Positions 323-23,435 of a DNA stretch of 64,000 nt are shown here, piece after piece; positions within the stretch are counted from its first letter, which is position 1, and every line of letters begins with the position of its first letter. This DNA comes from Turnera subulata (lineage: Eukaryota; Streptophyta; Magnoliopsida; Malpighiales; Passifloraceae), in assembly GCA_028386065.3 (NCBI GenBank), contig JAKUCV010005756.1:39029-103028 (forward strand). The letters run 5' to 3'. The notes under the pieces are model-generated. The model was not told the DNA's origin, did no database searches, and worked only from the letters and a program-made list of their open reading frames with translations. A program made the position numbers and the translations under genes.

Positions 323-1967
323 TGTTAGAACAATAGCTCTACGCTAGAGGGGGGGGGGGGGTGAATAGCGTTTATCAGATTAAAACAAAATGAGCAGGAA
401 ATAATTGCGGAATTTAAAGATTGAAGGACACAAAGATTTTTATACTGGTTCACACACAACTAACTTGTGGCTAATCCAGTCCTTCAAGTCTCACTTGAAG
501 ATTTCACTATCTAGTGTTAAGCTTACGGGTGCTTAACAAACTGTTACAACCTAGGAATTCTAGTCACAAGAATCCTAAACCTGAGAGTTCAAGTCACATG
601 AACCTCAGCACTCTTGCTTGAAGATACCTCACTTCAAGACTTCTCATATAAGAAGATATACCCTCTTCCTACGAATCTCAATAAGGGAACTAACCTCCCT
701 CAAGGTGTATAAATACACAATTCAATCACTCAAACAAAGAACTCTCTCAAAGAGCAGATATGAGTATACAAGTAAGGCTCTAAAAGGCAACTCTCAAATC
801 CTCAAAAGGATATTGGCTCAATAATAATTTTGATGAATGTATGGAATGAATGCTTGAATGTTGAGAGTTGATTAATTGAATTAGAGCTGAAAATGCTTAA
901 TTTGTAGCTCTGAAAAGTCATGGAGCCGTTTGAAATCCACCCAAGAAAAAGCTTTAAACAAAACATAGTGGGTGCTAAAAGTTGTCAGCAATAACGGCCA
1001 TAACATCGATGTTTTAATACTCAACATCGATGTTTTGTCCAGCAAATTTGAATTTTTGGACTAACGGTAACTAAAACATCGATGTTCCCGAACCCAACAT
1101 CGATGTTATTTTGATTCTGTGAAAATGAGATGAAAACTGATTCTCGAAGAACATCGATGTTTAATTCATAACATCGATGTTATTTTGCTTCTGTGAAAAT
1201 GAGATGAAAACTGATTCTTGAAGAAAATCGATGTTTAATTCACAACATCGATGTTATTTTGCTTATGTGAAAAACGATTAAAGCTGACCATTGAAGAACA
1301 TCGATGTTATGAAATCCAACATCGATGTTTTGCTTATGTAAAGGATATTTTCAAATGCAACGGTCATGAGAACATCGATGTTTAGGATTCCAACATCGAT
1401 GTTATTTGCCTACTGCCAATTTCTGGAAAATTCTTTACAGGCAGGAACATCGATGTTTAGAAGGCAACATCGATGTTATTTTGGCTCGGCAAAAAGAAAT
1501 TGAAACTGACCAATATGGAACATCGATGTTACAAATGGGAACATCGATGTTATGACTAATTTTAAAAGCAACGGTCACTAGAACATCGATGTTTAGGATG
1601 CCAACATCGATGTTATTTGCCTACTGACTGTTTTGGAAATCTGTTGGAAGGCAGAACATCGATGTTTTAAAAACGTAACATCGATGTTATTGATTCAAAA
1701 AATAGTTTGGTGTTTATGTGATGCATGAGCAAATGTTATGTTATTTTGAGCCAATGTCCTAGAAGAGTTGAGTGTTATACCTTGTACAATTTATGAATCT
1801 AACTCTTCTTTCTTGGCTCTTCAATCTTGTGCTTATTCACTTTGTTCTTGAATGGTTTCTTTGACTTGAGGATTAATTTGCCTTCATTTCAATTCATTTC
1901 TTTTTGCTTCCTGAATAGTTTGTCAATATCAAAACCTATAAGAAGCAAGGAGGCATTAGTTCCAACA
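323..1967 (-). repeat. LTR of TR-GAG copy 1 (1645 bp)
   Basis: It starts TGTTAGAACA and ends TTCCAACA on the plus strand, with the primer site on one side and LINE sequence on the other. It aligns along its length with 11109-12486. It is about 177 bp longer than the copy 2 LTR (about 1468 bp), mostly because its palindrome array has ten pairs instead of eight. A run of 13 G at 349-361 is 7 G in copy 2. The insertion interrupts the LINE at 1968. Confidence 0.9.
1002..1688. repeat. Paired-palindrome array A (10 pairs)
   Basis: Ten pairs of the 12-bp perfect palindrome AACATCGATGTT start at 1002, 1075, 1150, 1226, 1297, 1371, 1446, 1519, 1582 and 1655. The two members of a pair are 8-10 nt apart (18-20 bp start to start in the tightest cases, usually 21). 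Pair-to-pair spacing is 63-76 bp, mostly 73-75. Nineteen of the 20 sites are exact. The DNA between pairs is only loosely conserved, with a shared TTTTGCTTCTG or GCCTACTGCCAA core. Confidence 0.97.
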
Positions 1968-4900
1968 ATGCCGCAGGGTGTGAGTTGGTTCGGCTCGGCA
2001 GTTTATGGCAATCTGAATCCGACAGTGCGGTCTTCTTTATGGCAGCATCTTCAGGCTCTGACGATCCCTGATGGTAGTCCTTGGATGCTTGTTGGTGACT
2101 TTAATGATTATGGCAGCCCTTCGGATACGGTTGGGGATCATTATTCGGCAGCACGGGCTCAGCTTTTTAATGAACGGTTAGATTCTCTTCAGTTTATGGA
2201 TCTTGGTTTTTCGGGGTCCTTCATTCACTTGGGTTCGTATGGTGGGAGGCGCTGTTGTCATGCGCACTCGTTTGGATAGGGCTGTTGCTACAGCTGAATG
2301 GCGAGAGCTATTTTCGGAGGCTTCTGTTCTTCATCTGCCGCGAGCTCATTCTGATCATCATCCATTGCTTGTTATGTTGGATGGTTTAGTGGGACCTCCG
2401 GTGAGGCGCCCTTTTCGGTTTGAAGTAGCATGGCTGTCTCATGCTCAGTATGGTCCTTTGGTACGCTCTTCTTGGGTGCACCAACCTTATAGGCTTCAGC
2501 AATCTTTGAAGAGGATTGAGGAGGTTTCTTTATCTTTTAATAAGAATGTCTTTGGTAACATTTTCCGGCGGAAAAGGTGGTTGCTTGCTAGGCTATCTGG
2601 TGTGCAACGTTCTCTTGCTTTGCAGTCGACTTTTGCATTGCTTCAGTTGGAGCGTACCCTTCAAGCTGAGTATAAGGCAATGTTGCAGCAAGAAGAGCTT
2701 CTCTGGTTTCAAAAGTCTCGTGAGAAATGGATTACTCAGGGGGATCGTTGTACTCGTTTCTATCATCTCTCTACTTTGCACCGGCGGAGGAGGAACAAGG
2801 TGGAGAGTTTGAAGGTAAATGGTGTTTGGTCGTCTGATCCTGTTGTGATCCGGCGTGAGGTTGCTGACTTTTATCATGATTTATTTGGTGCCTCTGTTGC
2901 CGTGGAGTGTTCCCCAGCTTATTTACGCCCTCGGCATGTTTTGAGTTTGAATGATCAGTTGGCTTTGCAGACTCCAGTGTTACGTGATGAGGTTTGGGAA
3001 GCGCTTCGTTGGATGGGTAATTATAAAGCCCCGGGGCCAGATGGGTTTTAGCCGGTGTTTTTTAAACACTTCTGGGACATGCTTGGGGGGGATCTGGTTT
3101 CCATGATTAGACATGCCTTTGATTCGGGATCCTTTGAGGCTTCTTTGGCGGCTACTTTGGTTGTTCTCATTCCTAAGGTGGCGGTACCTGAACGGATCAC
3201 AGAGTTCAGACCAATCAGTCTCTGTAATGTGTCTTATAAAGTTCTTACCATGGTGTTGGTTAATAGACTCCGCCCTCTCCTTGATTCTCTTATTAGTCCT
3301 TGTCAGGCTAGTTTTCTCCCCGGACGATGCACGCGGGATAATATTATTATTGCACAGGACCTTGCTAAGGCTTATGACTGTGTTAATTGGATCTTTCTCT
3401 GAGAATCTTTGGAGTTTTTTGGCTTCCCACAGGGGATTGTTGCTTTGATAATGCATTGTGTGAGTTCTGCCAAATTTTCTATTCTTTGGAATGGGGAGCA
3501 ACTGCCTTCTTTCCCAGGTCGCCGGGGTTTGCGGCAAGGGGACCCATTGTTGCCGTATCTCTTTGTGATCTGTATGGAGAGATTATCTCTTCTTATTGAG
3601 CATCGGGTGTCGAGTGGGGTTTGGCAGCCAGTCCGTGCTTCACAGAGTGGTTCGGCTTTCTCACATTTGCTTTTTGCGGATGATGTGTTATTATTTGCAG
3701 AAGCTACAGTGCAGCAGGCCGAGATGATTAAGGGGACCTTGGCAGAGTTTTGTGGCTTTTCGGGGAAGAAGATTAACGCCTTGAAGTCTCAACTTTATGT
3801 GGCGCCTTCTGTTAGTGATGGGGTGCGTCATGACTTGAGTACTTGTTTAAGGATGGCAGTGGTGGCAGATTTAGGACAGTATCTAGGTGTGCCTTTGTTG
3901 CACGGTCGGGTGAACAAGCGCACCTATCAACATGTGGTGGATAATGTGCAGAAACGTCTTTTGGCCTGGCAGTCTAAGCATCTCACGCATGCTGGTCGGT
4001 TGACATTGATACAATCCACGGTGTCTGCTCTGCCTCTTTACACTATGCAAGCGGCTTGGTTACCGGCAAGTTTTTGTGAAGCCATTGATCAGGTGACGCG
4101 ACATTTTCTATGGGCACGGGGTGAGTCAGCGGGAGTGCACTTGGTGTCTTGGGAGGTGGTTACTCGTCCCAAGTCTCGTGGCGGTTTGGGTATTAGAAGA
4201 GCACGTGAGAATAATATGGCTCTATTGGGTAAGGTGGGTTGGTCATTATTGCAGAATGAAGGGAAGCCTTGGTATCGTCTTCTCTGTGATAAGTATCTCG
4301 GTGCTGACTCTTTGTTCCAGCATGTTGCCTTGCCTTCTTCCTCTCCTTTTTGGAAGGGGGTGATGCGTAGCTTCCACGCCTTTCAAGGGGGTTTTAAATG
4401 GCGGGTTGGTTCTGGGGATCACATTTCTTTGTGGTTTGATCAGTGGGTGGCCAGTGGTCCTTTAGCGGAAGGTGTTGTGGCTGTGCCGGATGGGTTAGAT
4501 GATTTGGTTGTTTCTGATGTTATCGTGAATAGGGAGTGGGATTGCTCCCTCCTGCGGGGGTTGATTTCGGAGGATCTTGTTGCTCAGATCTTGGCTGTGC
4601 CTCTTTCTCGCTTTTGGTTATCACCTGATGCTTTATTTTGGATGTTTTCTCATAATGGTGTGTATTCTGCGAAGTCTGGTTATCTTTGGCTTACACAGGC
4701 AGTGGAGCAGGAGTTGGATGTTTCTTGGTCATGGATTTGGAAGCTTCCTTTGCCAGCGAAGCTTATTACGTTTTTGTTGCTAGTCCGCTGGCGGCGGTTG
4801 CTTACTGATGTTCGTCGGGTTAAGAATGGGATTGCGGGCTCTGATATGTGTGCTCGCTGTGGAGGGGCTAGTGAGGATATTGAGCACTTGTTTCGGCTGT

Positions 4901-5003
4901 GTCCTCACTCTCGAGCCATTTGGCGCTTGTGGTTTTTATGCAGATGTGGCGGATTTGTTTTTTGCTATGCCATTTCTTGAGTGGTTTGATGCTGGCGCCC
5001 GGG
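1968..5003 (+). pseudogene. Plant L1-type LINE ORF2: endonuclease and reverse transcriptase part
   Basis: ORF2 of a non-LTR retrotransposon, which nicks target DNA and reverse-transcribes its RNA there. Seen in order: the end of the EEP endonuclease (WMLVGDFND, then SDHHPLLV, about 1980-2390), a linker with FRFEVAW and the WITQGDRCTRFYH motif, the reverse transcriptase (YKAPGPDGF, FRPISLCN, RRGLRQGDPLLPYLF, and FADD near 3676), and a C-terminal zf-RVT domain (CARCGG...HLFRLCP, about 4840-4900). It is broken by a frameshift near 2235 and a CAG-to-TAG type stop at 3049. There is also a deletion of roughly 23 codons before the LAKAYD motif and a frameshift near 3400. The endonuclease start is missing because a TR-GAG element occupies that side. 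It continues at 13354. Confidence 0.93.
4999..5003 (+). repeat. Target-site duplication CCGGG (left)
   Basis: CCGGG immediately precedes the TGTTAGTGTAATATG start of the Copia LTR and recurs at 13354-13358 immediately after the other LTR end. It marks where the Copia element entered the LINE. Confidence 0.9.
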
Positions 5004-6552
5004 TGTTAGTGTAATATGCCCAAAAGCCAATCAATGGATGTATATTTTGAGTCATGTATACACATTAAGGTTATTCCAATAAGTATCGTTTATGAGATAG
5101 ACGCTTGCACATACTTATAACCCTAGAATATTTCATATTCTTAAATTGTCCCTAGTCGATTATTATTATGGATGGGTTGTAATAATAAATTAAGACTAGC
5201 GTATGTTGAGAATTGCATATGTGATATGAATTCTACATACGGGTACAAGTTAGAGAACTTGTGGACTGGACCGACCCACATGAGAACGCTACATGGAACG
5301 TTATATGTTTTGTCGATAGCGGTTCTTATAATGTATTGTCCTTAGACCTGTGATCATCAAGGTTCCCAACATGTGAGTCATATGCTTTGATATTATTCCT
5401 GGTCGTCCGTAACTGGATAGACGGAAGGGTAATCATTGGGTATATGATGAGTGTGTAGTGGGTTTTGTATGATCCAGAGGGGATTCGTCCAACCCATATA
5501 ACGGGTATATTATCGGAGTGTTTCTTGATAGAGTTGAACCGTAAATGCATGGCCATGCTCGGATAATGATATATAATATCATTGGTATCCGTTTTACCGG
5601 TTAACTCGAGGATCAAGAAACCGAGATTAAACATATACGAGATTGACATATTCCATGTCTCGTGTTTAATCTTGATAATAGGACGAAGGGACGATGACAT
5701 GTTCCGAGGCACGTGGAATCAGTATTGATCTTGTCGTTCGGGTGGCAATGATGTGTTGCTAGACGCCGCTCTTTGCTTATGATTGTAAAATGAGATTTTA
5801 CGATTATTGCCGAACGTACAAGTGCCTACAGGGTCACACACATACAGCCGTTGATTCGAGCAGGTGGTTGAACTGTGGTTGGACCATGGTTAAACCAAGG
5901 TGTGGTTGGATCGTGGTTGGACCAGGGTCATTTTGGGCTGGTTTGGTTCAATTATTGTCAGCATAATTAAGCCAAACTAGTGCTGTGATGAGTTGGTGTG
6001 TTTTGTACATTAGTGGGTAACATGATTATGTGGAGACATAATCATATTGCTTAATGGACCACCATGTTGGCCATTAAACCACTACTTTATGCCATTTGAT
6101 AGGGTTGAGTGATCTGATCACTTTTGCATCATCTTCCTCACTTGAGAGAGTTTTCAGAGCTTGAGAAGTGTTCTTGAGAGGTCTGAAAAAATTGAGAGCA
6201 AAACACACATATCTTTTTTGTGAAAGAAGAGTCAAAACACCACACACAAAAGCTCCCGGAAACCTGTTGCTAGCACACCAGTTCGGGAGAGCTCGGGTTG
6301 GAGTCGTGAGACGTTCTTCAACTGGTTACAGCGGTTCGTGTGGATACCGTAGAGGGGCGAGGCTTTTGTCTGGCTCTAGCTGATTCGGTTCTACAGTTGG
6401 GTGAAAGACCTCAACCGTTACAGGTATGAAAAATTGTTATTCGGTTTAGCTCCCTTCACATGGATCCTCCATGTGTATCCGGTATTTCCGCTGCGCATAC
6501 ATGTTGTATTTTTGTGCTTTTGATTGTCAATTGCATGAACCGGATACTCACA
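5004..6552 (+). repeat. 5' LTR of Copia-N (1549 bp)
   Basis: It begins TGTTAGTGTAATATGCCC and ends GGATACTCACA, directly followed by the primer site. The equivalent LTRs are 27601-28966 and the remnants 12867-13353 and 22119-22592. A 71-codon open frame at 6168-6383 recurs in the other copy (12969) but lies in LTR sequence and is not treated as a gene. Confidence 0.92.
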
Positions 6553-6553
6553 G

Positions 6554-6566
6554 TGGTAGCGGAGCC
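6554..6566 (+). promoter_or_regulatory. Primer-binding site of Copia-N
   Basis: TGGTAGCGGAGCC lies one base after the LTR end, identical to the sites at 22594 and (minus strand) 11106 and 320. It sets minus-strand DNA priming and shows the element runs left to right. Confidence 0.85.
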
Positions 6567-6841
6567 CCTTGTGAAGTCCTAAACCGAATTTTGTGTGTTC
6601 ATATGTTATATGTGATATAGCTTGAACATGCTAGGCATATGTGATATGTTGTTTTCAATTATGTATATGTGATATATGTATTGATGTTGGTGTTTGTCAA
6701 AAGAGTTTTGACAAAGAGGACTTGATTGGTATGTGATATCAATCAAGGAGTTCTTGGCAGTAAGTTGAAGGAGTTCGACTAGGAAAAACCGAGTGTCGGT
6801 TTGTGTTTTGAACGATTGTAGTTCAAGTTCCGCAGGCCCAG

Positions 6842-7485
6842 AACATCGATATTGGTAGGACTAACATCGATGTTCATGTGTTGATTAGCCTTTGCCGAGC
6901 CGAATTAACATCGACGTTGTGTGGACAACATCGATGTTCTAAGTAGGCTGGTTTTGGCCGAATCAAAATAACATCGATGTTGAGTTATCAACATCGATGT
7001 TGACATGAAAAGGCCTTGGCAGAACTCTCAAAACATCGATGTTTAAGAGTTAAACATCGATGTTTTTTGAGCTCGGCCAAATTGTTTTGAGTTCCAGAGC
7101 TCCAACAACATCGATGTTGTAATGTCCAACATCGATGTTCTTGAGTTCTAGAACCCAAACATCGATGTTTAAATGTTAAACATCGATGTTAAAAGGCTAC
7201 TGCGAAAACTTGAATTTTTCAGAAACTCATCAACATCGATGTTGAAAGTTCAACATTGATGTTATTGAGCTATTGCCAAAAGGTTTGGAGTTCAAGTTAC
7301 ACACAACATCGATGTTGTAATGTCCAACATCGATGTTATGGAGCTACTGCCAAAATTGTTTGGAGCTCGAGTTCTCACAACATCGATGTTGTAATGTCCA
7401 ACATCGATGTTATTGAGCTACTGCCAAAGAGTTGGGACAATTTGATTGTCACAACATCGATGTTCCAAATGGTAACATCGATGTT
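6842..7485. repeat. Paired-palindrome array B in the Copia-N leader (10 pairs)
   Basis: Ten pairs of AACATCGATGTT start at 6842, 6907, 6970, 7032, 7107, 7158, 7232, 7305, 7379 and 7453. Each pair has an 8-9 nt spacer. The last four intervals are 73-74 bp and the earlier ones 51-75 bp. Seventeen of 20 sites are exact; the others are AACATCGATaTT, AACATCGAcGTT and AACATtGATGTT. The inter-pair DNA carries GAGCTACTGCCAAA, which is also present between pairs in the TR-GAG LTR arrays. The array lies between the primer site and where gag should begin. Confidence 0.97.
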
Positions 7486-7498
7486 ATCATATAATTTT

Positions 7499-7532
7499 TG
7501 GGCCGGGGCTCCGCCCCGAGCCCTGGCAAGGG
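7499..7532 (+). repeat. GC-rich hairpin sequence abutting the assembly gap
   Basis: After the last palindrome pair the sequence turns abruptly to GGGCCGGGGCTCCGCCCCGA and then runs into the gap. GGGGC-TCC-GCCCC can fold on itself. Nothing similar follows array E in the sister element, so this may be the start of a further insertion. Its identity is unknown. Confidence 0.5.
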
Positions 7533-7953
7533 NNNNNNNNNNNNNNNNNNNNNNNNNNNNNNNNNNNNNNNNNNNNNNNNNNNNNNNNNNNNNNNNNNNN
7601 NNNNNNNNNNNNNNNNNNNNNNNNNNNNNNNNNNNNNNNNNNNNNNNNNNNNNNNNNNNNNNNNNNNNNNNNNNNNNNNNNNNNNNNNNNNNNNNNNNNN
7701 NNNNNNNNNNNNNNNNNNNNNNNNNNNNNNNNNNNNNNNNNNNNNNNNNNNNNNNNNNNNNNNNNNNNNNNNNNNNNNNNNNNNNNNNNNNNNNNNNNNN
7801 NNNNNNNNNNNNNNNNNNNNNNNNNNNNNNNNNNNNNNNNNNNNNNNNNNNNNNNNNNNNNNNNNNNNNNNNNNNNNNNNNNNNNNNNNNNNNNNNNNNN
7901 NNNNNNNNNNNNNNNNNNNNNNNNNNNNNNNNNNNNNNNNNNNNNNNNNNNNN
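7533..7953. other. Assembly gap (421 N)
   Basis: From the LTR alignment, the missing start of the TR-GAG copy 2 LTR (about 287 bp) should occupy the right part of this gap. That leaves roughly 130 bp of unknown leader or inserted DNA if the gap size is real. Confidence 1.
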
Positions 7954-9133
7954 GCTTGAAGATACCTCACTTCAAGACTTCTCACACAAGAAGATATACC
8001 CTCTTCTTGTGAATCTAACCAAGGGAACTAACCTCCCTCAAGGTGTATAACAACACAATAATCACTCAAACAAGAGGTCTCTCTCAAAGAGCAGATGTGA
8101 GTGTACAAATGAAGCTCTAAAAGGCAACTCTCAAATCCTCAATAGGATATTGGCTCAACAAAGATTGATTTGAATGTATGAGATGAATGCATGAATGTTG
8201 AGAGTTGATTCATTTTTAAACACAGCTAAAAATGCTCAATTTATAGCTTTGAAAAGTTATATAGCCGTTTTAAATCCACCCAAAAACAGCCTTAAACAAA
8301 ACATAGTGGGTGCTGAAAAAGTTGTCTGCTACAACGGCAAAACATCGATGTTTTAACTTTAAACATCGATGTTTTAGCCAGCAATTTTAAATTATTGCTC
8401 CAACGACTAGTAGAACATCGATGTTGCATTTTAGAACATCGATGTTTTCATACTCAACATCGATGTTCTTAAATTCAACATCGATGTTTTTTGGCTTCGC
8501 AAAAATATGATGAAAACGGAGTTATGCAAGAACATCGATGTTGAAAATAAAACATCGATGTTTTTTGGCTACTGCCAAATTTCATCTTGTTTGACAATTG
8601 TCAGAACATCGATGTTTTGAGTAGAACATCGATGTTTTTCCGCTTCTGCCAAATTTTGGAAAACATTGAAGAAATCACAACATCGATGTTTCAAATGACA
8701 ACATCGATGTTTTGACCAACGGTCACAAGAACATCGATGTTTAGGAAGCCAACATTGATGTTATTTGCCTACAGCCAAATTGTGAAAAACTTGGGAAAAC
8801 AGAACATCGATGTTTGTTGACAGAACATCGATGTTTTGGACTAAAAACACAACTTTATGCTTGAAAACATGCTTATAAATTGTATGATTGAAATGTGTTT
8901 TGTTTGAGCCAATGCCTAAGAGAAGTTGAGTGTTTTACCTTGTACAAATGGGTCCTAACTTCTCATGCTCTTCTTTTCACTTCAACTCTTGATCATATCT
9001 TCACTTGAATTCTTGATCACTTTGGTTGAGTACTTGTTTGCTTGATTTCTTTTTGCTTCATCATTGTTATGATCTTGGTTTGTCATTTATCAAAACCTGT
9101 AACGAATGAACCATGAAGACATAGGTTCTAACA
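7954..9133 (-). repeat. 3' LTR of TR-GAG copy 2 (start lost in gap)
   Basis: It matches 11396-12486 almost base for base and continues 90 bp further to GGTTCTAACA at 9133, where the polypurine tract begins. The first ~287 bp lie in the gap. Confidence 0.92.
8341..8835. repeat. Paired-palindrome array C (8 pairs)
   Basis: Eight pairs of AACATCGATGTT start at 8341, 8414, 8456, 8531, 8605, 8679, 8730 and 8803. Intervals are 73-75 bp except for 42 and 51, which look like deletions. Fifteen of 16 sites are exact; 8751 reads AACATtGATGTT. Between pairs TTTGGC-TACT-GCCAAA forms a further small hairpin (near 8564). Confidence 0.97.
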
Positions 9134-9504
9134 ATTTCCCCCTTTTTGATAATGACAAACACCTAGAAGTATATGCTACTGTTTATAACATAAAGATGAT
9201 TCCCCCTATGTTTTACAAACTATAATTCCCCCTATCTTGTTGCATATACTTCTTCCTATCTTCCCCCTTTTGACATTAGCAAAAAGAAATAATGATAAGA
9301 AGAGGTTGAGAAGTGCTTATGTAAGAAATAGGTGGAGCTTTGAACAAGTGCAACATATTATCTACACCTATACACTTCTATATATGCCAAAATAAAGAAT
9401 GTTAGAAAGCTTAGCTGAACATCGATGTTGTGATACTCAACATCGATGTATTGAGACTTCTGCTCAAATTTTGAAGTTCTTCATCATCCCTTTGTTCCCC
9501 CTAT
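9134..9504 (-). promoter_or_regulatory. Multiple polypurine tracts of TR-GAG copy 2
   Basis: On the minus strand, AAAAAGGGGGAAAT directly precedes the 3' LTR (9134-9148). Further GGGGGAA tracts occur at about 9200-9210, 9226-9236, 9261-9274 and 9494-9504. Polypurine tracts prime plus-strand DNA. Clusters of them upstream of the 3' LTR are a known Sirevirus trait, which supports the lineage call. Confidence 0.75.
9419..9450. repeat. Isolated palindrome pair inside TR-GAG copy 2
   Basis: AACATCGATGTT at 9419 and AACATCGATGTa at 9439, 8 nt apart. This single unit of the array motif lies in the internal region near the polypurine tracts, away from the LTR arrays. Confidence 0.9.
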
Positions 9505-9666: not shown

Positions 9667-11052
9667 TCAAAGGGATTTTGGTACCCAAATCTTTTTGGGT
9701 CCTTGATGGTTAGGAACATAGTAGTGATGAGCCTTATCTTGTGCCCAATGTCTATGCCTAGTAAAACATACCGGGGCAATGTGTCCTATCCTATTACAAT
9801 AGTGACAAATAACATTAGGATTATGCATCCTCCTTGGTTGATAATAGTTGCTATTTTGATTATGTCTATGCATTCTAGTAAACTTGTTTTCCTTAGGTAT
9901 AACCCTGTTTTCCCTAGGTTGGGCTATGTGTGTCCTAGGTTTAGTGTAATGAGATTTTCCATTCCTACCATTGTAGGCATTCATTTTAGCATAATGAGAT
10001 TTTCCACTACTTACATTTGATCTTGCATTTTGAGCATGTGACCTTCTATGATGAGTATATGATCTTGTGTCATGAGCATGTGATCTAGTATGAAGAATAG
10101 AAGATGAAACACCATGTTTATGTGTCTTAGCATTGAGCACCACAGTTTTGACATCATTTGTCATATGAGATGCACCTAATCCTTCTTTTTGTGTTGGACT
10201 TCTTTGTTGTCCTAGGAGAAGATTAAGACTATCTCTACCATTAGTAAACTTCTCTAATGTTTTCTTCAAATCATCAACTTGATGCTTAAGAGATTCATTC
10301 TCTTTTCTCAATTCAACACAAGCACATACATTAGAAGAAATCTTCTCATTAAGTTCATTGCAAGACATACTAAGAGCATGCTTTTCCTTTTCAAGCTTAT
10401 CAATTTTACTTGATAACTCTTCCTTATCATTTGATAATTTCTCATTATCCTTTTCAAGCTTATCAATTTCACTAGATAACTTATCCTTATCATCTGATAA
10501 TAATTCTACATTATTTTCTAAGGTCTTGTTTTGTTTCTTTAAGTTCTTATTAACATTTGAGACAGAAATGAATTTACTATACAATTCACTAAATGCATCT
10601 TGCAGCTCTTCAAATGTATAATCATCATTCGAATAGGAAGTACTTACCTCTTCCAGAGATTCTTCATTTGCCATGCAACAGAGGTTGACAGTTTCATCTT
10701 GCTTGCTGTCGGTTTCCTCATAGATGACTCCCAGCATTTCCCACATCTCCTTGGCCGTTGCGCAGTGCGAGATCATTTGATAGTCATTCGGATTGACTGC
10801 ACCTTGGAGCATGTGTATTGCCTTGGAGTGGTTTTCGATTCTTTGGATGTCATCTTCGTTGTACCCTGCTTCCGTCCTTGTCGGAACTTGAACGCCATTC
10901 TTTATCGTTAGCCAAGCTGCAAAGTTATTGGCTTGGATGAAGATTCTCATCCTTTCCTTCCAATATGCGTAATTTGTCCCGTCAAAGAATGGTGCACGGG
11001 TAGTGGATTGTCCTTCAATGATTCCTGCATACAAATACCTTGAACAAGCCAT
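9667..11052 (-). CDS. Copia (Sirevirus-like) Gag protein, intact, 461 aa
   Basis: Capsid/nucleocapsid protein of the gag-only element, expected to build cytoplasmic virus-like particles that package element RNA. The N-terminus carries the FDGTNYAYWKERM signature of the DUF4219/UBN2 gag region (residues ~24-45). The rest of that capsid domain is short, ending near residue 115. Residues ~150-270 form a strong coiled coil with repeated SSKIDKLEKE-type heptads. A basic, histidine-rich stretch follows, then a CCHC zinc knuckle (CHYCNRIGHIAPVC, about residues 415-428), and the protein ends in KKIWVPKSL. No stop or frameshift interrupts it, and no pol follows. The start was chosen at the first ATG after the primer site, 42 nt inside it. 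Protease, integrase and polymerase would have to come from an autonomous relative. Confidence 0.9.
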   Translation of the reverse strand: MACSRYLYAGIIEGQSTTRAPFFDGTNYAYWKERMRIFIQANNFAAWLTIKNGVQVPTRTEAGYNEDDIQRIENHSKAIHMLQGAVNPNDYQMISHCATAKEMWEMLGVIYEETDSKQDETVNLCCMANEESLEEVSTSYSNDDYTFEELQDAFSELYSKFISVSNVNKNLKKQNKTLENNVELLSDDKDKLSSEIDKLEKDNEKLSNDKEELSSKIDKLEKEKHALSMSCNELNEKISSNVCACVELRKENESLKHQVDDLKKTLEKFTNGRDSLNLLLGQQRSPTQKEGLGASHMTNDVKTVVLNAKTHKHGVSSSILHTRSHAHDTRSYTHHRRSHAQNARSNVSSGKSHYAKMNAYNGRNGKSHYTKPRTHIAQPRENRVIPKENKFTRMHRHNQNSNYYQPRRMHNPNVICHYCNRIGHIAPVCFTRHRHWAQDKAHHYYVPNHQGPKKIWVPKSL

Positions 11053-11093
11053 GGAAATTTACCTCTCAAACGGTTAGGTCTTTCAGAGAGTTA

Positions 11094-11106: not shown

Positions 11107-11108
11107 AT

Positions 11109-12486
11109 TGTTAGAACAATAGCCCTGCGCTAGAGGGGGGGTGAATAGCGATAATCGAATAAAAACGAAATAAGCAGGAATTAAATGCGGAATTGAAAGA
11201 ATGAAGGACACAAGAAATTTATCCTGGTTCACACACACTCTACTAGTGTGGCTAATCCAGCCCTTCAAGTCTCACTTGAAGATTTCACTATCTACGTTAA
11301 GCTTACGGGTGCTTAACAAACCGTTACAACCTAGGAATTCTAGTCACAAGAATCCTAAACCTGAAAGTTCAAGTCACATGAACTTCAGCTCTCTTGCTTG
11401 AAGATACCTCACTTCAAGACTTCTCACACAAGAAGATATACCCTCTTCTTGTGAATCTAACCAAGGAAACTAACCTCCCTCAAGGTGTATAACAACACAA
11501 TAATCACTCAAACAAGAGGTCTCTCTCAAAGAGCAGATGTGAGTGTACAAATGAAGCTCTAAAAGGCAACTCTCAAATCCTCAATAGGATATTGGCTCAA
11601 CAAAGATTGATTTGAATGTATGAGAAGAATGCATGAATGTTGAGAGTTGATTCATTTTGAAACACAGCTAAAAATGCTCAATTTATAGCTTTGAAAAGTT
11701 ATATAGCCGTTTTAAATCCACCCAAAAACAGCCTTAAACAAAACATAGTGGGTGCTGAAAAAGTTGTCTGCTACAACGGCAAAACATCGATGTTTTAATT
11801 TTAAACATCGATGTTTTAGCCAGCAATTTTAAATTATTGCTCCAACGGCTAGTAGAACATCGATGTTGCATTTTAGAACATCGATGTTTTCATACTCAAC
11901 ATCGATGTTCTTAAATTCAACATCGATGTTTTTTGGCTTCGCAAAAATATGATGAAAACGGAGTTATGCAAGAACATCGATGTTGAAAATAAAACATCGA
12001 TGTTTTTTTGGCTACTGCCAAATTTCATCTTGTTTGACAATTGTCAGAACATCGATGTTTTGAGTAGAACATCGATGTTTTTCCGCTTCTGCCAAATTTT
12101 GGAAAACATTGAAGAAATCACAACATCGATGTTTCAAATGATAACATCGATGTTTTGACCAACGGTCACAAGAACATCGATGTTTAGGAAGCCAACATCG
12201 ATGTTATTTGCCTACAGCCAAATTGTGAAAAACTTGGGAAAACAGAACATCGATGTTTGTTGACAGAACATCGATGTTTTGGACTAGAAACACAACTTTA
12301 TGCTTGAAAACATGCTTATAAATTGTATGATTGAAATGTGTTTTGTTTGAGCCAATGCCTAAGAGAAGTTGAGTGTTTTACCTTGTACAAATGGGTCCTA
12401 ACTTCTCATGCTCTTCTTTGCACTTCAACTCTTGATCATATCTTCACTTGAATTCTTGATCACTTTGGTTGAGTACTTGTTTGCTT
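11109..12486 (-). repeat. 5' LTR of TR-GAG copy 2, outer 90 bp missing
   Basis: It starts TGTTAGAACA at the primer-site side and matches the other LTR up to GTTTGCTT at 12486. There it switches to Copia gag sequence without the last 90 bp (equivalent to 9044-9133). GCTT is shared by the LTR and by the Copia gag (GCTTACAAGAAGC) at this point, as expected for a microhomology deletion that removed the outer LTR end and the target duplication. Confidence 0.9.
11783..12278. repeat. Paired-palindrome array D (8 pairs)
   Basis: The LTR partner of array C: sixteen sites in eight pairs, all exact AACATCGATGTT, including the site that has decayed to AACATtGATGTT in array C. First pair 11783/11804, last pair 12246/12267. 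Confidence 0.97.
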
Positions 12487-12866
12487 AAGAAGCATCTAGA
12501 TGATGCATTGGATATAGGATGCCTCATGCTTGTTAACATGGAATCTGAGCTTCAGAAGCAACACGAGAACATGGGGGCGTTCGATATGATCGAACACCTT
12601 AAGATGCTCTTTGAGGAGCAAGCAAGGCATGAGAGGTACGAGACCTCTAAGGCATTGTTCCAATGCAGAATGGCTGAATCATCTCCTGTCAGACCTCATG
12701 TGTTTAAGATGATTGGATACATCGAAAGCCTTGAGGGTCTAGGGTTTCCTTTGCAGAAGGAATTGGCTGTTGACCTAGTCCTGCAATCGTTGCCGAATAG
12801 CTACGGTCAATTTGTCATGAACTTCAATATGAACCATCTTGACAAGTCCTTGTCCGAGTTGCTACT
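12487..12866 (+). pseudogene. Copia gag fragment of Copia-N
   Basis: An open frame matching the gag at 24197-24575 residue for residue over most of its length (KKHLDDA..., ELQKQHEN, IGYIESLEGLGFPLQKEL, FVMNFNMNH, KSLSELL). This is the UBN2-type capsid region. The fragment has no start codon of its own and no zinc knuckle. It is cut off by deletion on both sides: TR-GAG LTR on the left, 3' LTR on the right. Confidence 0.92.
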
Positions 12867-13353
12867 TTATGCCATTAAACCACTACTTTATGCCATTTGA
12901 TAGGGTTGAGTGATCTGATCACTTTTGCATCATCTTCCTCACTTGAGAGAGTTTTCAGAGCTTGAGAAGTGTTCTTGAGAGGTCTGAAAAAATTGAGAGC
13001 AAAACACACATATCTTCTTTGTGAAAGAAGAGTCAAAACACCACACACAAAAGCTCCCGGAAACCTGTTGCTAGCACACCAGTTCGGGAGAGCTCGGGTT
13101 GGAGTCGTGAGACGTTCTTCAACCGGTTACAACGGTTCGTGTGGATACCATAGAGGGGCGAGGCTTTTGTCTGGCTCTAGCTGATTCGGTTCTACAGTTG
13201 GGTGAAAGACCTCAACCGTTACAGGTATGAAAAATTGTTATTCGGTTTAGCTCCCTTCACATGGATCCTCCATGTGTATCCGGTATTTTCGCTGCGCATA
13301 CATGTTGTATTTTTGTGCTTTTGATTGTCAATTGCATGAACCGGATACTCACA
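12867..13353 (+). repeat. 3' LTR remnant of Copia-N
   Basis: It matches 6070-6552 of the 5' LTR and ends ACTCACA before the right CCGGG. About 1.06 kb of its upstream part is gone. At the join, the ~15-bp sequence CTACTTTATGCCATT appears twice (12862 and 12881) but once in the intact LTR, a templated repair footprint. Confidence 0.9.
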
Positions 13354-14117
13354 CCGGGGTGAGTGGCCGGGGCTGGATGCTACCCTTTTTGTAGTTCTGT
13401 ACTGAAAAATTTGGTGTGCATGTAATAGTGCAGTTTTTTATGGGGTGGTTGCTTTTCCTCCGGTGTTGTTGGTGGCTGGGCGCCGGTTGGAGTGTGAATA
13501 TGCTACTGCTTGGGGTTCTGGTCGGGCTTTAGCTGCGGGTGTGGGTGAGGTTTTGATTTCTTGGCACACACTGAGGGAGGGCTGGGTGAAGTTTAATGTT
13601 GATGGCAGCTCTTTGGGTAATCCGGGAGCTTCCGGTGCTGGGGGTGTCCTTCGGGATCATTGTGGTGCGTGATGTGGTGGATTCTCATGCTCTTTGGGGT
13701 TTGCTACAATCATGCTTGCGGAGTTGTTTGCCATTCTTCAGGGCCTTATGTTGGCTTGGGATTGGGGCTACCGTCGGGTGGTGGTGGAGTCGGACTCTCT
13801 TGAGGCTATCTCTTTGTTGAGCTTAGCTGTGTTGCCAGTTCATCCTTGCTATGCTTTGCTGGTTGATATCGCCGAGTTGCGTGCACGCGGATGGGAGTGT
13901 GAGTGTGTACATGTGCTGCCCCAATGGAACTTTTGTGCCGATTTCATGGCCAAACTTGGTGCTCGTCAAGTGGAGCGTGTGGTTAGCTGGCCTTCTCCTT
14001 CCCCTGGTCTTCGGCAACTCCTTGCAGCGGATGCTGCAGGTGTTGCCTTTGTTCGCCCGTGATTGCTAGCTTTGCTTTGTTTTCTGTCTTTTCTATTCCG
14101 TTGTACCAAAAAAAAAA
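13354..14117 (+). pseudogene. LINE ORF2 RNase H part and 3' end with A-tail
   Basis: It resumes the LINE interrupted at 5003, starting with the second copy of CCGGG. The RNase H domain (RVT_3 type, degrading RNA in RNA-DNA hybrids) shows WVKFNVDGSS with the first catalytic Asp (~13590), AELFAILQGL with the Glu, and VVVESDSLEA with the next Asp. The C-terminal VLPQWNFCADFMAKLG stretch follows. One frameshift lies near 13672-13694. A stop after VAFVRP ends the ORF near 14062. The 3' untranslated tail ends TTGTACC plus ten A residues at 14117, typical of plant L1-type LINEs. Confidence 0.92.
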
Positions 14118-15325: not shown

Positions 15326-15660
15326 TTTTCTTTTCTTTTCTTTCTTTTCCTTTCTTTTCTCCTTTCTTTTCTTTTCTTCTCCATTTTTCTTCTTCAGCCA
15401 CCGGCCCTCCCCTCTTTCTTTTCTTTCTCTTTCCCGAGACTTGTTGTCCCCTTCCTTTGTCTTCATCTTCTCTCCTCTTCTTTATTTTCTCTTCCCCTTC
15501 ACCGTTTCCTCCACGCCTCCCCTGCCAAACCCATCTTCTCCTTACTCTCCTCCTCTTCAATTCCTTTTCCTCCTCTGCCTTCCCCAAGCAAGCCGTTGCC
15601 TCTCCTCTCTCCCTCCCGTTTTCCTTTTTCCTCCTCGCCTGTGCCATCTCGGCCTCCTCC
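15326..15660 (+). repeat. Polypyrimidine tract in solo LTR
   Basis: Several hundred bases of nearly pure CTTTTC/CCTCTT sequence follow a GC-rich boundary. A GC-richer segment with spurious open frames in both strands comes after it. The Gypsy LTRs at 29274 and 35496 have the same layout with purines on this strand. Confidence 0.8.
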
Positions 15661-18361: not shown

Positions 18362-18403
18362 GGGATGTTGATCCCGGATTGTTGTTATTGGGATGTTGAT
18401 CCC
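18362..18403 (+). repeat. Two GGGATGTTGATCCC hairpin units
   Basis: GGGAT-GTTG-ATCCC at 18362 and 18390, 28 bp apart. The same small inverted repeat is multiplied in the other Gypsy LTRs (31525, 31551, 47888-47990 and others). Confidence 0.85.
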
Positions 18404-18623
18404 GGATTGTGTTTTGGCCTGGCATCCAGAATTAGTTAATGACCAGGTACGACCCTAGCTTGTCCAGTGACAGGGGCCCGGAAGATAAAATTTGGTAATA
18501 ATAATATATATTCTTTTGGTCTTGGCTCAGTCGTATTTTGGTGGAATCTTTGAGTTGTCTTTGCCTGTATTTTTTTCGAAAGTATTATGGTTGCCTGCAT
18601 ATCTCTGTTTATCCTTGGTCGGT

Positions 18624-18669
18624 GAGCACTTCGGACTCACCCCTCGCCTGCGGGGTTTCATCCCGTAGG
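18624..18669 (+). promoter_or_regulatory. Conserved LTR block with hairpin (copy 1 of 6)
   Basis: GAGCACTTCGGACTCACCCC followed by CCTGCGGG-GTTTCAT-CCCGTAGG, an 8-bp stem with one G-T pair. It is nearly invariant in six LTRs of the window whose other sequence has diverged. Its role is unknown; an RNA structure in R/U5 is one possibility. Confidence 0.75.
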
Positions 18670-18953
18670 AAGAGTTGTTTGTGGTACAGGAACGTACGGG
18701 GGCAGGCTGCTGTGTACCCTCGGGCAGGACTCGGATCTATTAACTTGCATTTGGAGTTTTGCATATGTTGTTTATAAGATTATAAATGCTTCCGATGTGC
18801 TATTGTTGTTGTTGTACCCATAGTCGGGTGACATGATATTATCTTTGGGCCGTTGGGCCGGGTTTTCCATTTGTATTTACTGTCTGTGCCACGTTTCGGC
18901 ACTGTTGTTTGGTAATTACTATTTGTTGGGTAAATTTGGGTCGGGATGTTTCA

Positions 18954-19110
18954 CACCTCACGAAAGACAATAGGTTAACCAGATGGACCAAAGCGTGGCA
19001 ACACCAATTGAGAGCCTTGCATGCCCGAAATGCGTGGAGCCAGAAAAAAGAAAGCCACTGACGTAGCCAGGATTGAATAGTCGGTGGGGCAATCCAATAC
19101 ACTCCCCACC
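18954..19110. other. Short intergenic stretch with hAT-end-like sequence
   Basis: Contains ACGTAGCCAGGATTGAATAG and GGTGGGGC, resembling the terminal motif of common plant hAT elements, but no second end was found. Nothing else is recognised here. Confidence 0.35.
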
Positions 19111-19738
19111 AATCACACAGTAAGTTTTTGATAATGGAGCATTCTTCATTAATTTAAACAGATCAAAAGATCTGAGATACATAATTGAAGATCTAGTAAA
19201 ACAAAAGCATGAGAAAAATTTAACCTAAGAATTCTTCTCAATCTACTACAAAGAAACACACAACGAGATCTATTTCCTTCAAAAGAGGATTTACAACAGC
19301 ACTCTGCTCTCGCGGGTGTCATAACCTGGTCTGTGCAATCACCAAGCCAACAGGTAAAGGCGATGCATATCTGTGGGGTGAAATATCCCTTTGTTGGCGA
19401 ATTTGTGCAGTAGACAAAGAATTGTTCTTGAGGTCGAATCTTCCTCCATGGCTTTTGGCTCCCATAGTTTTATTCGAATCACCAAAACGCTGACGGAGAA
19501 AATACACCCACAAAAAGTAGGACTAAACTCACAAAAAGTGAGACAAAACTCACAGACTAAACCCACAGAAAGTGAGAATAAAACAACAAAATAGAAAAAC
19601 AACAGAGAAAAAGCTAATTGGTGGGGGCTTACCGCCGAAAAAAAAGTCATCGGCGGCAGCCCCAATATGTAGATCTAGGGTTTTTTCTCTGAGAGAAAGG
19701 GAGAGTGGTAGTGACTGATCTAATCACACAATAAGTTT
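19111..19738 (-). mobile_element. Short LINE-derived insertion with 17-bp target duplications
   Basis: The direct repeats AATCACACAgTAAGTTT (19111) and AATCACACAaTAAGTTT (19722) flank 594 bp. Read on the minus strand, the insert starts with a leader-like region and a short frame beginning MEEDSTSRT. It ends CATTATCAAAAA, a short A-tail abutting the duplication. Long target duplications and a 3' A-tail mark target-primed reverse transcription. No reverse transcriptase remains, so this is an internally deleted LINE or a SINE-like derivative. Confidence 0.65.
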
Positions 19739-20651
19739 AAAAATATTAGAATGATATGGATATATTTTTTTTATGTAGATGCCATATCACCGCCCAATCC
19801 ATATATAACAAGAAAAGCTAAATAGTTTACTTTAAACCTTTAATCTTCATCCCAAGTAATTTTGCAAACTTCCCGTCGTAGATAAACATTAATTTTAAAG
19901 AAAAAATAAAAAAAATAAATCATTCCATTGAGCTATTAGTATATACTAGCTCACTTCCAGTGGATTTCACGGACTTGTTTACTAATTAATCTCCCGCACA
20001 AACAAAATAAAATAAAAAATGATTAAAATAGATTTAAAAAATAACAAAATATAAAATCAAAGAGGATGTTTAATTAAGAGAGATAAAATAACTTTAATAG
20101 TATACCAACATTCATACATATGTAAATCGAAATAAAACAAAGAAGCGAATTGAAATAAAACAAAGAAGGGAGTGAATGAGTGAATGATAGAGAAACTGTA
20201 TCACACACAGACAGAGACTGTATCTAGACCTTGTGTAGTGCAAATAGAAACAAGAAAGAGTTGTGAAAGAGAATGAATGAATAATAGAGAAATTGTATCA
20301 CAGACAGAGATTATTGTTTCACATACACAAACAGAGACTGTATCTGTATTTAAAGAGAGATGATGGAGAAGAAATATTTGAAAAGATACACGATAAGAAA
20401 TAAAGATAGGTTAGTTTTAAATAACAATATTATCTTATCAGTGATACAGTTTATCAATCTAAAGCTAATATAATTCTTATCATATCAATATTATCTTATT
20501 CGTTTAATTCCAATCTTATGTGTCAAAACCTGGTGAGGGTAAAGCTTTCACATGGCAATAAAGGAAGACCCAAAAAATACTATGTGTCAAAACCTGGTGA
20601 GGGATTCAGCTTTGTATATATATAATAGATTAGGTAAAGGCATCCAAATTT
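19739..20651. other. AT-rich intergenic DNA
   Basis: No gene is seen. There are loose repeats around GAAATTGTATCACAGACAGAGA (20160-20345). A 23-bp direct repeat (TATGTGTCAAAACCTGGTGA...) occurs at 20517 and 20581. Confidence 0.5.
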
Positions 20652-20656
20652 GCGAC
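20652..20656 (+). repeat. Target-site duplication GCGAC (left)
   Basis: Matches GCGAT at 51668-51672 with one transition; the two copies flank the LTR ends exactly. Confidence 0.75.
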
Positions 20657-21095
20657 TGTTGGGAAATTAGACATGTTCAACATATAAACAATCTATGCAC
20701 AACGGAAGAATTAAATAAATAGAAAAGAAGACTTATCTATGTCTATTAGATTGGAGCCCGTTAAAACGATTCTGGATCAGTTGTTCCTCTGGATCATTGG
20801 AGTATCGATGTTGGTCGGAGTTAAATCACTAGGATATTAATCACTAGAAAGTAACTCACAAGCCACAACCTACGAACCCTAAAGTTGTATGAAGATGGTT
20901 TTTGTTTTTTACTGGACAAACTAGAGAGAAGGAGAGAGAGAGAGCACACAGTGAAAGGAAAAACAACCCACGTTCTTTTTCTATTCTGCACACCTAGGAA
21001 TAAACTGACTAACAGTTTTTCCATAAAACAATATGGAACTGGGCTTTATCAAATAGGCCCAGACCATCATGGGTATACAACCCAATAAACCAATA
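20657..21095 (-). repeat. 3' LTR of the non-coding Copia-type element
   Basis: 439 bp, matching 51228-51667 throughout (TGTTGGGAAATTAGACATG... to ...CCCAATAAACCAATA). On the minus strand it follows the polypurine tract. Confidence 0.9.
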
Positions 21096-21104
21096 TCTCC
21101 CACT
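21096..21104 (-). promoter_or_regulatory. Polypurine tract
   Basis: The minus strand reads AGTGGGAGA directly before the LTR. The same Copia-type tract precedes the LTR at 27601. Confidence 0.8.
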
Positions 21105-22118
21105 CACACATGATGGACACTATCATCTACATCTTCGAAACATTTCATACGGGCAAATAAGTCGTGTGACCAACATACTAGTAAGAGCTCTTTATTGTAC
21201 ATCTGTTAGGAGTATACAATAGCTCAAGTAGAGAACTATATTGTACATCTATTAAGAATAGACAATAGCTCAAGTAGAGAAAGTATGTAAGCTCCCCAGA
21301 TACATTTTGTTGCATTCTTAGAGAAACACAGATCTCCATTCTCTATATGTATTCACAATTATATTTTACTGAAAAACATAAGTGGCCACATTGCGAACAC
21401 AAAGAAAAATACAACACTCAATGATTTTCCCTTTTACTCAAAACTCTACATCTTAACTCAGCTGCTTTTCTGACATATCCCAATTAGGTCGAATCACTCA
21501 TGGCCATTCAGAATACAGCTAAGATAGCAACACCAAACTAAGGTTTCAAGTAGTAGCAAAAGTTCCCTAAGGGCGCTTGTGAGAAATTATTAATAATTTC
21601 TCAAGGCTCACACAGTAAGGAAATGAGATCATATTTCCTACTCCTTAATCGATCACAAAGCACACATGGTATGAATTCATGTGTCACAGTATTTTCTCCA
21701 TCCCTTATTGGAGCATATGTCGTTAAATACTGTATAGGTAATAGTTCAAACACACCTAGTGTTCAACTTGGGTTCACCACTCTACCGTTTTACAACAGAA
21801 CCCTACCTAGCTTTTGAAGAGACAAGATAAAACCGTACTCCGTTTTATCTTCGGTCAATCATGACTGACCTCATCTTGAACAATATCAAGGCGACAATAT
21901 GTTTTAAGTCAGGCTCTTATAGAATAAGTACTCAACTTATTCTTGACTTAAAACTGTCTTACCCCTATGACACACTTAGTCATAGAGATGGTTATTCGTG
22001 TGAGAGAGCTAACCTGTCTGTTAGACATATCTTTTGATGAGCTCAGCACTAAGCCTCTCATCCCAGCATATGCACCTAGCATATGTCCACACATGTACAT
22101 AACATGTATTCCATATAA
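21105..22118 (-). other. Internal non-coding DNA of the 20657-51667 element (3' part)
   Basis: About 1 kb with only short accidental frames and no recognisable retroviral domain. TTGTACATCT...GACAATAGCTCAAGTAGAGAA occurs twice (21195-21285). It ends where the truncated Copia LTR begins. Confidence 0.7.
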
Positions 22119-22592
22119 TATGTTGGCCATTATCCCATTGTCTCTTAGCACTAATTGGGGGTAGAGTAATCAGATTACTCTTGACCCTTCTCACTCTCTC
22201 TTGCACTCTGAATTCTGGGTTTTTTAGAGCAAGAAACACACACACTTCTTCCTCTCTTCTTGGTGAAAGAAAGAGATACCATAAACATCACATATAGCTC
22301 TCGAAAATCCGTAGCTAGCACTACGGTTCAGGAGTGCTCGGGGGTTGGAAGTCGTGAGATGATTCTGGCTTTTGATTGACGGTTCTTGTCGATACCGTAG
22401 AGGAGCAGGATATCCTTCCGGCTCTAGCTGATTCGGTTCATCAGTTGGGTGAAAGACCTCAACCGTTACAGGTCTGTTCGTTTTTGTTATTCGGTTTAGC
22501 TACCCTTCACTTGGATCCTCCATGTGTATTTGGTTTTTCCGCTGTGTATGTTATTGCATTTGATTGTCAATTTGCATGCCCGGATACTTACA
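22119..22592 (+). repeat. 5' LTR remnant of Copia-E
   Basis: It matches 28500-28966 of the 3' LTR (TGTTGGCCATTATCCCATTG... to ...CGGATACTTACA). The upstream two thirds are deleted, so the promoter is probably lost. Confidence 0.9.
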
Positions 22593-22593
22593 G

Positions 22594-22606
22594 TGGTAGC
22601 GGAGCC
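22594..22606 (+). promoter_or_regulatory. Primer-binding site of Copia-E
   Basis: TGGTAGCGGAGCC one base after the LTR end, identical to 6554-6566. Confidence 0.85.
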
Positions 22607-22893
22607 TCTTGTGAAGTTCTAAACTGAATTATGTGTTCATATGTTATATGTGATATAGTATGAACATGCTAGTATATGTGTTATGCTGAATTCATTTGTA
22701 TATGTGATGTGCTAAATGAGTTATTGAACATGTTGATGTTGTGTTTTTGTTAAAAGTGTTTTGACAACAAGCACTTGATTGGTATGAGATATCAATCAAG
22801 ATGTTCATGGCAGTAAGTCGAAGAGTTCGACTAAGAAAAATCGAGTGTCGGTTTTTGTATAGAACGATTGTCGTTCTAGTACAGCTAGGCCAT

Positions 22894-23435
22894 AACATCG
22901 ATGTTGGTGAGACCAACATTGATGTTAGCATGAAGTTTAGCCTTGGCCGAACCTTCATAACATCGATTTTGTGTGACCAACATCGATGTTCTGATGAAGT
23001 TTAGCCTCGGCCGAACGTTCACAACATCAATGTTGTGTGACCAACATCGATGTTCTCATGCAAAACTCTCAAAAACATCGATGTTTAAGAGTTAAACATC
23101 GATGTTATTTGAGCTCAGCCAAATTGGTTTGAAGTTCCAGAACTCTCATAACATCGATGTTCAAGATTCCAACATCGATGTTCTTGAGTTCCAGAAGTTC
23201 AAACATCGATGTTAAAATGCTACTGCCAAAATTTTGAACTTTTGGAATTCTCAAAACATCGATGTTGAAAAGTTGAACATCGATGTTATTGAGCTACTGC
23301 CAAATAGTTTGGAGTTCAAGTTACTCAAAACATCGATGTTGAAGTGTTGAACATTGATGTTCTTAAGCCTCGGCCAAGTGGTTGGCGAGAATCAGATTCT
23401 CACAACATCGATGTTCACTGTTAGACATCGATGTT
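22894..23435. repeat. Paired-palindrome array E in the Copia-E leader
   Basis: Pairs start at 22894, 22959, 23023, 23074, 23150, 23255, 23329 and 23404, plus one unpaired site at 23202. Twelve of 17 sites are exact. Four of the five altered sites change or abut the central CpG (AACATtGATGTT twice, AACATCaATGTT, AACATCGATtTT); the fifth changes the first base. The array lies 300 bp after the primer site and 570 bp before gag. Confidence 0.96.

Follow-up and report, generated by a model that had tools for sequence, protein, structure and literature searches.

Palindrome arrays in LTR retrotransposons

The 64,000-bp stretch of Turnera subulata DNA analysed here (the window) contains long terminal repeat (LTR) retrotransposons in which a 12-bp perfect palindrome, AACATCGATGTT, recurs in five arrays. 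Over the whole window the exact palindrome occurs 80 times, where base composition predicts about 0.007 copies; a further 11 sites carry one mismatch and one carries two. An earlier description made from the letters alone (the original prediction) had reported about 80 exact palindromes in five arrays, and the count bears this out: 79 of the 80 lie within the arrays it named, and the remaining one, at 9418, has a partner carrying one mismatch. Sites with at most one mismatch number 20, 20, 16, 16 and 17 per array in window order. Two of the arrays are not independent, since they belong to the two LTRs of one element, A2, which are 99.1% identical. Three of the five arrays lie in LTRs of a first family of elements, A, and the other two in the 5' leader of a second, B (Table 1). 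The original prediction had missed the position of two arrays outside LTRs in an unrelated second family, and the sharing of the module across families.

Measured over sites with at most one mismatch, paired palindromes in the window stand 20-22 bp apart start to start, which is the predicted gap of 8-10 nt. A periodicity of 74 bp had also been proposed; this is indeed the commonest array repeat, but it is not the sole one, and distances between pairs of 52-55, 42-44 and 30-31 bp also occur. A genome-wide count of the 12-mer had been suggested as a check, and the outcome exceeds the scale originally claimed: the assembly (518.7 Mb in 7,125 contigs) holds at least 76,101 exact copies of AACATCGATGTT, as against 63 of the reversed sequence, and at least 31,037 exact pairs with a gap of 6-14 nt, as against 15 for the reversed control. 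Taken together, the window and genome-wide counts rule out a chance origin. At about 12 sites per array, the copies in the assembly would amount to roughly 6,000 arrays.

Two samples from outside the window were used for comparison. The first comprises 12 stretches (L006-L017; 116,210 bp) at the first-listed genome-wide matches to the pair pattern, so that pair spacing is selected in them and inter-pair spacing is not; the second comprises 11 stretches (55 kb), each chosen because it holds an odd spacing.

Elements of families A and B

Family A, represented on the minus strand of the window by A1 and A2, is Sirevirus-like on its sequence features and carries most of the Sirevirus signatures that were tested. 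According to the available parts of the account of Sirevirus repeated motifs (RMs) by Bousios et al. 2010 (PMC2829016), the linker holds several identical octamers, AGGGGGAG or AGGGGGAA, the last of them 10 bp before the 3' LTR, while the RM cluster begins 200-400 bp into the LTR and a TATA box follows shortly after. In A2 there are five AGGGGGAA tracts, the LTR-adjacent one being followed by AT and then by the LTR, so that the 3' attachment AT/TG reads AGGGGGAA-AT-TGTTAGAAC at 9143-9125. At the 5' LTR the junction CA/ATTGG is exact, the primer-binding site TAGCGGAGC matches seven of the nine letters of the expected TATCAGAGC, and the polyC integrase signal is present as ACCCCCCCTCTAGCG (11128-11142), roughly 20 bp away from the end of the LTR. 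The array lies 298-792 bp into the LTR, with the TATA box 77 bp further on. Arrays in the linker or adjacent to it also occur in family A copies L015 (8741-9200) and L025.

The only open reading frame (ORF) assigned to A2 is gag-like; no pol was seen in the element, which is why A2 is taken to be non-autonomous. Its gag aligns with a putative gag from tobacco (Q9ZTG6) over 98% of the length at 34% identity, and 62 of the 76 listed protein matches to family A gag come from Cuscuta campestris.

Family B consists of classic copia elements, on the plus strand in the window. A2 is nested inside B2, which is itself bounded by a CCGGG target-site duplication. Beyond A2, all that remains of B2 is a piece of gag with the end of a B LTR immediately behind it (12487-13353), and from this abutment B2 appears to have suffered a large internal deletion in addition to the nested insertion. 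The array occupies the same place in all seven B copies that show both leader flanks, these copies having been found through the palindrome, so that array-free B copies would escape notice. A GC-rich inverted sequence, GGGGCTCCGCCCC, lies at 7495-7532 beside the run of N that follows the B2 array, and a LINE-type ORF (RVT_1, zf-RVT) at 3403-4980 adjoins the B2 insertion; other long ORFs, at 1803-3051 beside the start of the A1 LTR, may belong to it.

Table 1. Positions of arrays, elements and associated features (window coordinates unless a stretch is named)
Feature	Position	Strand	Remarks
LTR of A1	323..1967	-	Runs 1967 to 323; begins TGTTGGAAC; terminal CA, then ATTGG and primer-binding site; polyC 342-362
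Array of A1, in U3 of Sirevirus-like LTR	1002..1688	-	20 palindromes, one with a mismatch
5' LTR of B2	5004..6552	+	Target-site duplication CCGGG at 4999-5003 and 13354-13358
5' leader array of B2	6842..7485	+	20 palindromes; follows primer-binding site 6554-6566
3' LTR of A2, sequenced part	7954..9133	-	Remainder within N gap 7533-7953
TATA box of A2, CTATATAA	8257..8264	-	Downstream of the 3' LTR array; repeated at 11699-11706 in the 5' LTR
3' LTR array of A2, in U3	8341..8835	-	16 palindromes
Five polypurine tracts of A2, AGGGGGAA	9136..9502	-	Starts 9136, 9200, 9226, 9261, 9495
Additional palindrome pair, A2 linker	9418..9450	-	Copy at 9439 has one mismatch
gag-like ORF of A2	9667..11058	-	463 aa; copia-type gag match slightly below Pfam cut-off (24.8 of 27 bits)
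5' LTR of A2	11109..12486	-	First ~90 bp missing
5' LTR array of A2, in U3	11783..12278	-	16 palindromes
Perfect example of second, weaker dyad TTTGGC-N4-GCCAAA	12007..12022	.	In spacer, 16 bp from palindrome centre
5' leader array of B1	22894..23435	+	17 palindromes; between primer-binding site 22594-22606 and gag
ORF of B1	24022..25857	+	Copia-type gag, Pol beta-barrel, gag-pre-integrase and integrase-core domains; up to N gap
3' LTR of B1	27601..28966	+	AGTGGGAG-AT directly before
Primer-binding sites TGGTAGCGGAGC or TGGTAGCAGAGC	6554, 11095, 22594; L007, L008, L010, L012, L015, L017, L022

The module in unrelated families

The AACATCGATGTT module is common to unrelated element families, namely three of copia type and one gypsy-like copy. 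Array-bearing copies were assigned to family A in L006, L010, L013-L016, L018, L020, L021, L023, L025 and L027; to family B in L009, L013, L019, L022, L024, L026 and L028; to a family C in L007, L008, L011 and L012; and to D in L017 only. Three small arrays (one at the end of L007 and two in L010) have no firm family assignment. No significant resemblance links the proteins of A and B (best E 0.57), and comparison of their non-coding DNA with the palindromes masked gave no match below E=0.01.

Classic copia elements average about 5.6 kb, with LTRs of about 0.56 kb and almost no linker, in the available text of PMC2829016. Family C, a short-LTR copia with gag-pol, has these proportions: the element in L007 is about 5.4 kb long, its 5' LTR is about 563 bp, and its last pol ORF extends as far as the polypurine tract, leaving almost no linker. 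TATA-like boxes precede its array, which stops 40 bp short of the LTR end. One C element (L007) has four palindromes in one LTR (2653-2758) and six in the other (7367-7545), so that array length changes within or after a single round of transposition.

The D copy has LTR-like repeats at 3142-3969 and 7596-8402 of L017, with the array (4094-4500) placed after the primer-binding site. Ty3/gypsy elements have a gag of Retrotrans_gag type and place reverse transcriptase before integrase; the D gag matches PF03732 (E=1.4e-6), and no pol was seen in this single copy. Among eight protein relatives, five contain PF03732 and two of these also PF19259, and these are of Ty3 type. Gag/pol ORFs that look Ty3/gypsy-like by eye also occur at 43226-46441 of the window, on the minus strand, in palindrome-free DNA.

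The position of the array thus varies: before the TATA box in A2, after TATA-like boxes in C (L007), and in the leader in B and D. Primer-binding sites throughout A-D read TGGTAGCGGAGC, two letters from the usual TGGTATCAGAGC, or TGGTAGCAGAGC, one letter from it.

Spacing by whole helical turns

In the window and L006-L017 combined, 251 successive distances of at most 100 bp fall only at 18-22, 30-32, 41-45, 51-55, 58 (one), 63 (one) and 73-76 bp, and there are none at 23-29, 33-40, 46-50, 56-57, 59-62 or 64-72 bp. Scanning periods from 8 to 14 bp, the best fit was 10.55 bp (n=166), or 10.60 bp when pair distances were left out (n=77); the period was still 10.5 bp in the 11 stretches picked for odd spacing (n=180). 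Genome-wide, such intermediate spacings exist but are rare: 98 exact pairs have a gap of 11-17 nt, compared with the 31,037 at 6-14 nt (gaps of 11-14 nt counting in both classes), and 35 of the 50 listed plus-strand pairs of the wider class sit at its edges, 21 at 11 nt and 14 at 17 nt. The helical phasing of the original prediction is supported, and it holds in 12 further stretches and also in the 11 others, if one sets aside the odd spacings that led to their selection. Other copies lacking any spacing preference had been named as a refutation, and the genome-wide pair counts show the opposite.

Conservation of palindromes relative to spacers

The original prediction also held that the palindromes had been conserved while the sequence between them diverged. 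Comparison of A1 with A2 gave identities of 190/191 in palindromes, 182/302 in spacers and 435/542 in flanks; B2 against B1 gave 196/204, 228/345 and 231/277, respectively, although alignments within arrays may pair non-counterpart units and so lower the spacer figures. When sites present in either sequence were counted, palindrome identity was 191/192 for A1/A2 and 196/204 for B2/B1, an aligned partner being missing for 4/36 and 3/37 sites. The claim stands, and the contrary outcome, palindromes evolving like spacers, was not seen in these two substitution comparisons. Palindromes exceed both spacers and flanks in 41 of 41 alignable locus pairs, with the qualification that the pairs are not independent and that palindrome columns were pre-selected as sites within one mismatch in each of the two sequences, a choice that raises their identity. 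Conservation relative to spacers is seen in the palindromes of B and C too.

The LTR pair of A2 has had only the time since insertion to diverge, and between its two members the three classes are alike (palindromes 190/191, spacers 300/303, flanks 590/595); on what are few changes overall, this gives no hint of a low mutation rate at the palindromes. The long spacers within an array resemble one another only slightly more than expected (similarity 0.74-0.80, compared with 0.68-0.71 when shuffled). Among 86 one-mismatch sites, 37 are altered at the two outermost letters and 19 by transitions of the central CpG; 13 of the 37 outermost changes come from L010, in which 13 palindromes are altered at the last letter, possibly marking a subfamily with a variant site.

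A proposed role for the arrays and its alternatives

The arrays are probably a cooperative binding platform for a dimeric host protein that would serve as a retrotransposon enhancer. Helical spacing maintained over diverged sequence, the symmetry of the 12-mers, and the varied position and direction of the module are what one would expect if a dimer bound cooperatively to an enhancer. The arrays would then constitute a cis-regulatory, enhancer-like module carried by copia elements of three families and by a single gypsy-like copy. A dimeric protein, likely of host origin, would occupy the palindromes side by side and cooperatively on one face of the DNA, and once bound would likely activate transcription of the retrotransposon. 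Recombination or capture has probably carried the module from one family to another, rather than its arising separately in each. The spacing is by itself a pointer to binding along one face of double-stranded DNA. The presence of the same cassette in unrelated families, at varied positions and in varied orientations, makes the enhancer idea directly testable; it suggests that a regulatory cassette can be transferred from one element family to the next, and that one factor could control much of the mobile DNA of a plant. It is tempting, if on balance somewhat doubtful, to go further and suppose that one host factor drove unrelated LTR elements of both superfamilies to carry a swapped, phased enhancer cassette, the roughly 76,000 sites forming one co-regulated network.

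Several observations weigh against binding and activation by such a protein. In the 11 odd-spacing stretches, distances of 23-29 bp occur 11 times, and those of 40, 46, 49, 56 and 70 bp once each. Within the window, a phase-free scan peaks at 10.8-11.15 bp and not at 10.5 bp, and the probability of the phasing by chance varies between 0.009 and 0.04 with the grouping of events; evidence for phasing from the window alone is weak, and it is the outside stretches that make it strong. A1 has no TATA box at the place where A2 has one, and D is represented by a single copy. A literature search, judged by the titles and abstracts it listed, brought up no plant factor for the 12-mer. The arrays fold strongly as RNA, so that the phasing leaves room for a role in RNA, and a module found at so many positions could equally be an insulator or the target of a silencer.

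A role in RNA is the best of the alternatives, if an unlikely one: the arrays would act as hairpins of RNA or single-stranded DNA, either in small-RNA production or as a signal by which the element RNA dimerises or is packaged. RNA folds of four arrays in the window are much more stable than those of 30 shuffled versions of each (z-scores -11 to -17), the leader arrays of B and D would be transcribed, and the palindrome clusters of maize Sirevirus LTRs are small-RNA hot spots in the accessible portions of two reports (PMC10760457, PMC5311732). Hairpins, however, do not require 10.5-bp phasing between pairs that do not base-pair together. A mirror change in the partner was found for only 4 of the 78 one-mismatch sites that have a pair partner, and the A2 array lies upstream of the TATA box, though it would recur at the 3' end of the RNA.

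Slightly less likely still is that the same protein platform leads to repression or insulation, the arrays being a silencing mark or a shield for the element. The leader position in B and D and the variation of position between families are in keeping with this; in Drosophila, the gypsy element is shielded by Su(Hw) sites located in its 5' leader. A site used only for silencing should nevertheless vanish from successful elements, yet the palindromes are their best conserved letters.

It is improbable that the palindrome is an ordinary Sirevirus RM that reached the other elements as a functionless passenger through nesting or recombination. Family A does show most of the Sirevirus features that were tested, with the array at the published position, but the conservation of palindromes over spacers in B and C tells against a passenger, as does the constant place of the array in the seven B copies, even allowing that they were found through the palindrome. 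Neutral tandem-repeat turnover by slippage, unequal exchange or gene conversion is very improbable: unit number does shift fast, as in the C element with four and six sites, but exchange would homogenise whole units, whereas here spacers are strongly diverged, the 12-mers are nearly identical and distances stay at whole helical turns, a combination on which pure tandem duplication was rejected.

Relation to known palindromic motifs

In family A the arrays resemble Sirevirus RMs in being perfect palindromes in many copies with diverged flanks, clustered before the TATA box and with extra copies in the linker. They differ from RMs in that AACATCGATGTT lacks the CGG-CCG core present in all RMs except that of tobacco Tnd-1; in that it occurs also in B and C, which have copia domains and almost no linker, and in D with its PF03732 gag; and in that arrays lie also in leaders and near the LTR end. 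The available sections of PMC2829016 report RMs as absent from classic copia elements, describe RM clusters as forming predicted CpG islands, which Tnd-1 lacks, and leave the function of LTR palindrome arrays open; they contain no mention of pairing or helical phasing of RMs.

Among the closest known motifs is that of Tnd-1, ACAATCGATTGT (PMC2829016, Table 3), likewise a 12-bp palindrome with an ATCGAT core and without CGG-CCG, present on its description there in eight copies in one element. The two motifs differ at four symmetric positions, and ACAATCGATTGT is absent from the window. In the same source the polypurine tracts of Tnd-1 and ToRTL1 end in A, and the family A tract AGGGGGAA similarly has its last G replaced by A. 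The arrangement had been put forward as distinct from Sirevirus motifs, a view that is not supported: three of the five arrays lie in a Sirevirus-like LTR at the published RM position, and Tnd-1 has the ATCGAT core.

The maize elements OPIE-2 and PREM-2 (CACCGGACTGTCCGGTG) also have palindrome arrays in Sirevirus LTRs, in a variable region that is a small-RNA hot spot, as far as the accessible text goes; the motif differs, and the second group carrying it in maize consists of Helitrons, not other LTR families. In the part of PMC10760457 available, the maize Sirevirus motif is the commonest in structured Helitron regions (5231 regions, 10.7%), and sharing beyond Sireviruses therefore has a precedent. 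The heat element of ONSEN and the W-boxes of EVADE, according to the portion of PMC12786077 at hand, are LTR sites for host transcription factors, with motifs that differ from AACATCGATGTT; a perfect three-part heat element was present in one of four LTR or leader regions scanned (A1).

Relative to the literature, as represented largely by titles and abstracts, the motif, its genome count, its helical phasing, and its occurrence in more than one copia family as well as in a gypsy-like copy are new. No report of a motif common to LTR families was found in those titles and abstracts, a search that did not take in a 2016 paper on Sirevirus palindromes; that paper, known through others that cite it, may already describe the phasing.

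The 12-mer string appears in two papers, one on the glucocorticoid receptor and the other on protein-DNA modelling, but a glucocorticoid response element was dropped as an explanation because plants are not known to have the receptor. A viral contig from IMG/VR (L001, 6502-6540) has two GGGAACATCGATGTTCCC sites 22 bp apart, which form an operator-like pair and no array; it too was set aside.

Spacer motifs and orientation of the module

The spacers of A and B have GCTACTGCCAAA in common at nearly the same offset, with a score of 18.3 compared with 14.4 for shuffled spacers (s.d. 0.67; maximum of 300 shuffles, 17.6); the reversed orientation scores 16.9, between the two. A is read on the minus strand and B on the plus, so that, judged by this asymmetric spacer motif, the module is inverted relative to transcription in one family as compared with the other.

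GCTACTGCCAAA forms part of the second dyad, TTTGGC-N4-GCCAAA, which is mostly degenerate outside the perfect example given in Table 1. This dyad was found in the window post hoc, where it occurs within three mismatches in 18 of 32 spacers (null 0.27; the A2 3' LTR left out), 16 of them 14-16 bp from the palindrome centre and two at 21-23 bp. Of 48 long spacers elsewhere, 11 have it (null 0.47), in every case at 15 bp; by family, these are 6/7 spacers in B, 3/27 in A, 1/12 in C and 1/2 in D. The second dyad is thus strong only in B and in part of A.

Heat-shock, E2F and MSA motifs were considered as an explanation of the spacers and rejected: a motif scan of the window found no E2F site in the arrays, and of its ten MSA-like matches (at most one mismatch) five fall in family A arrays, which is too few to support such a reading. 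MSA-like sites (YCYAACGGYYA) in family A spacers lie at 11841-11851, 12158-12168 and 1356-1366.

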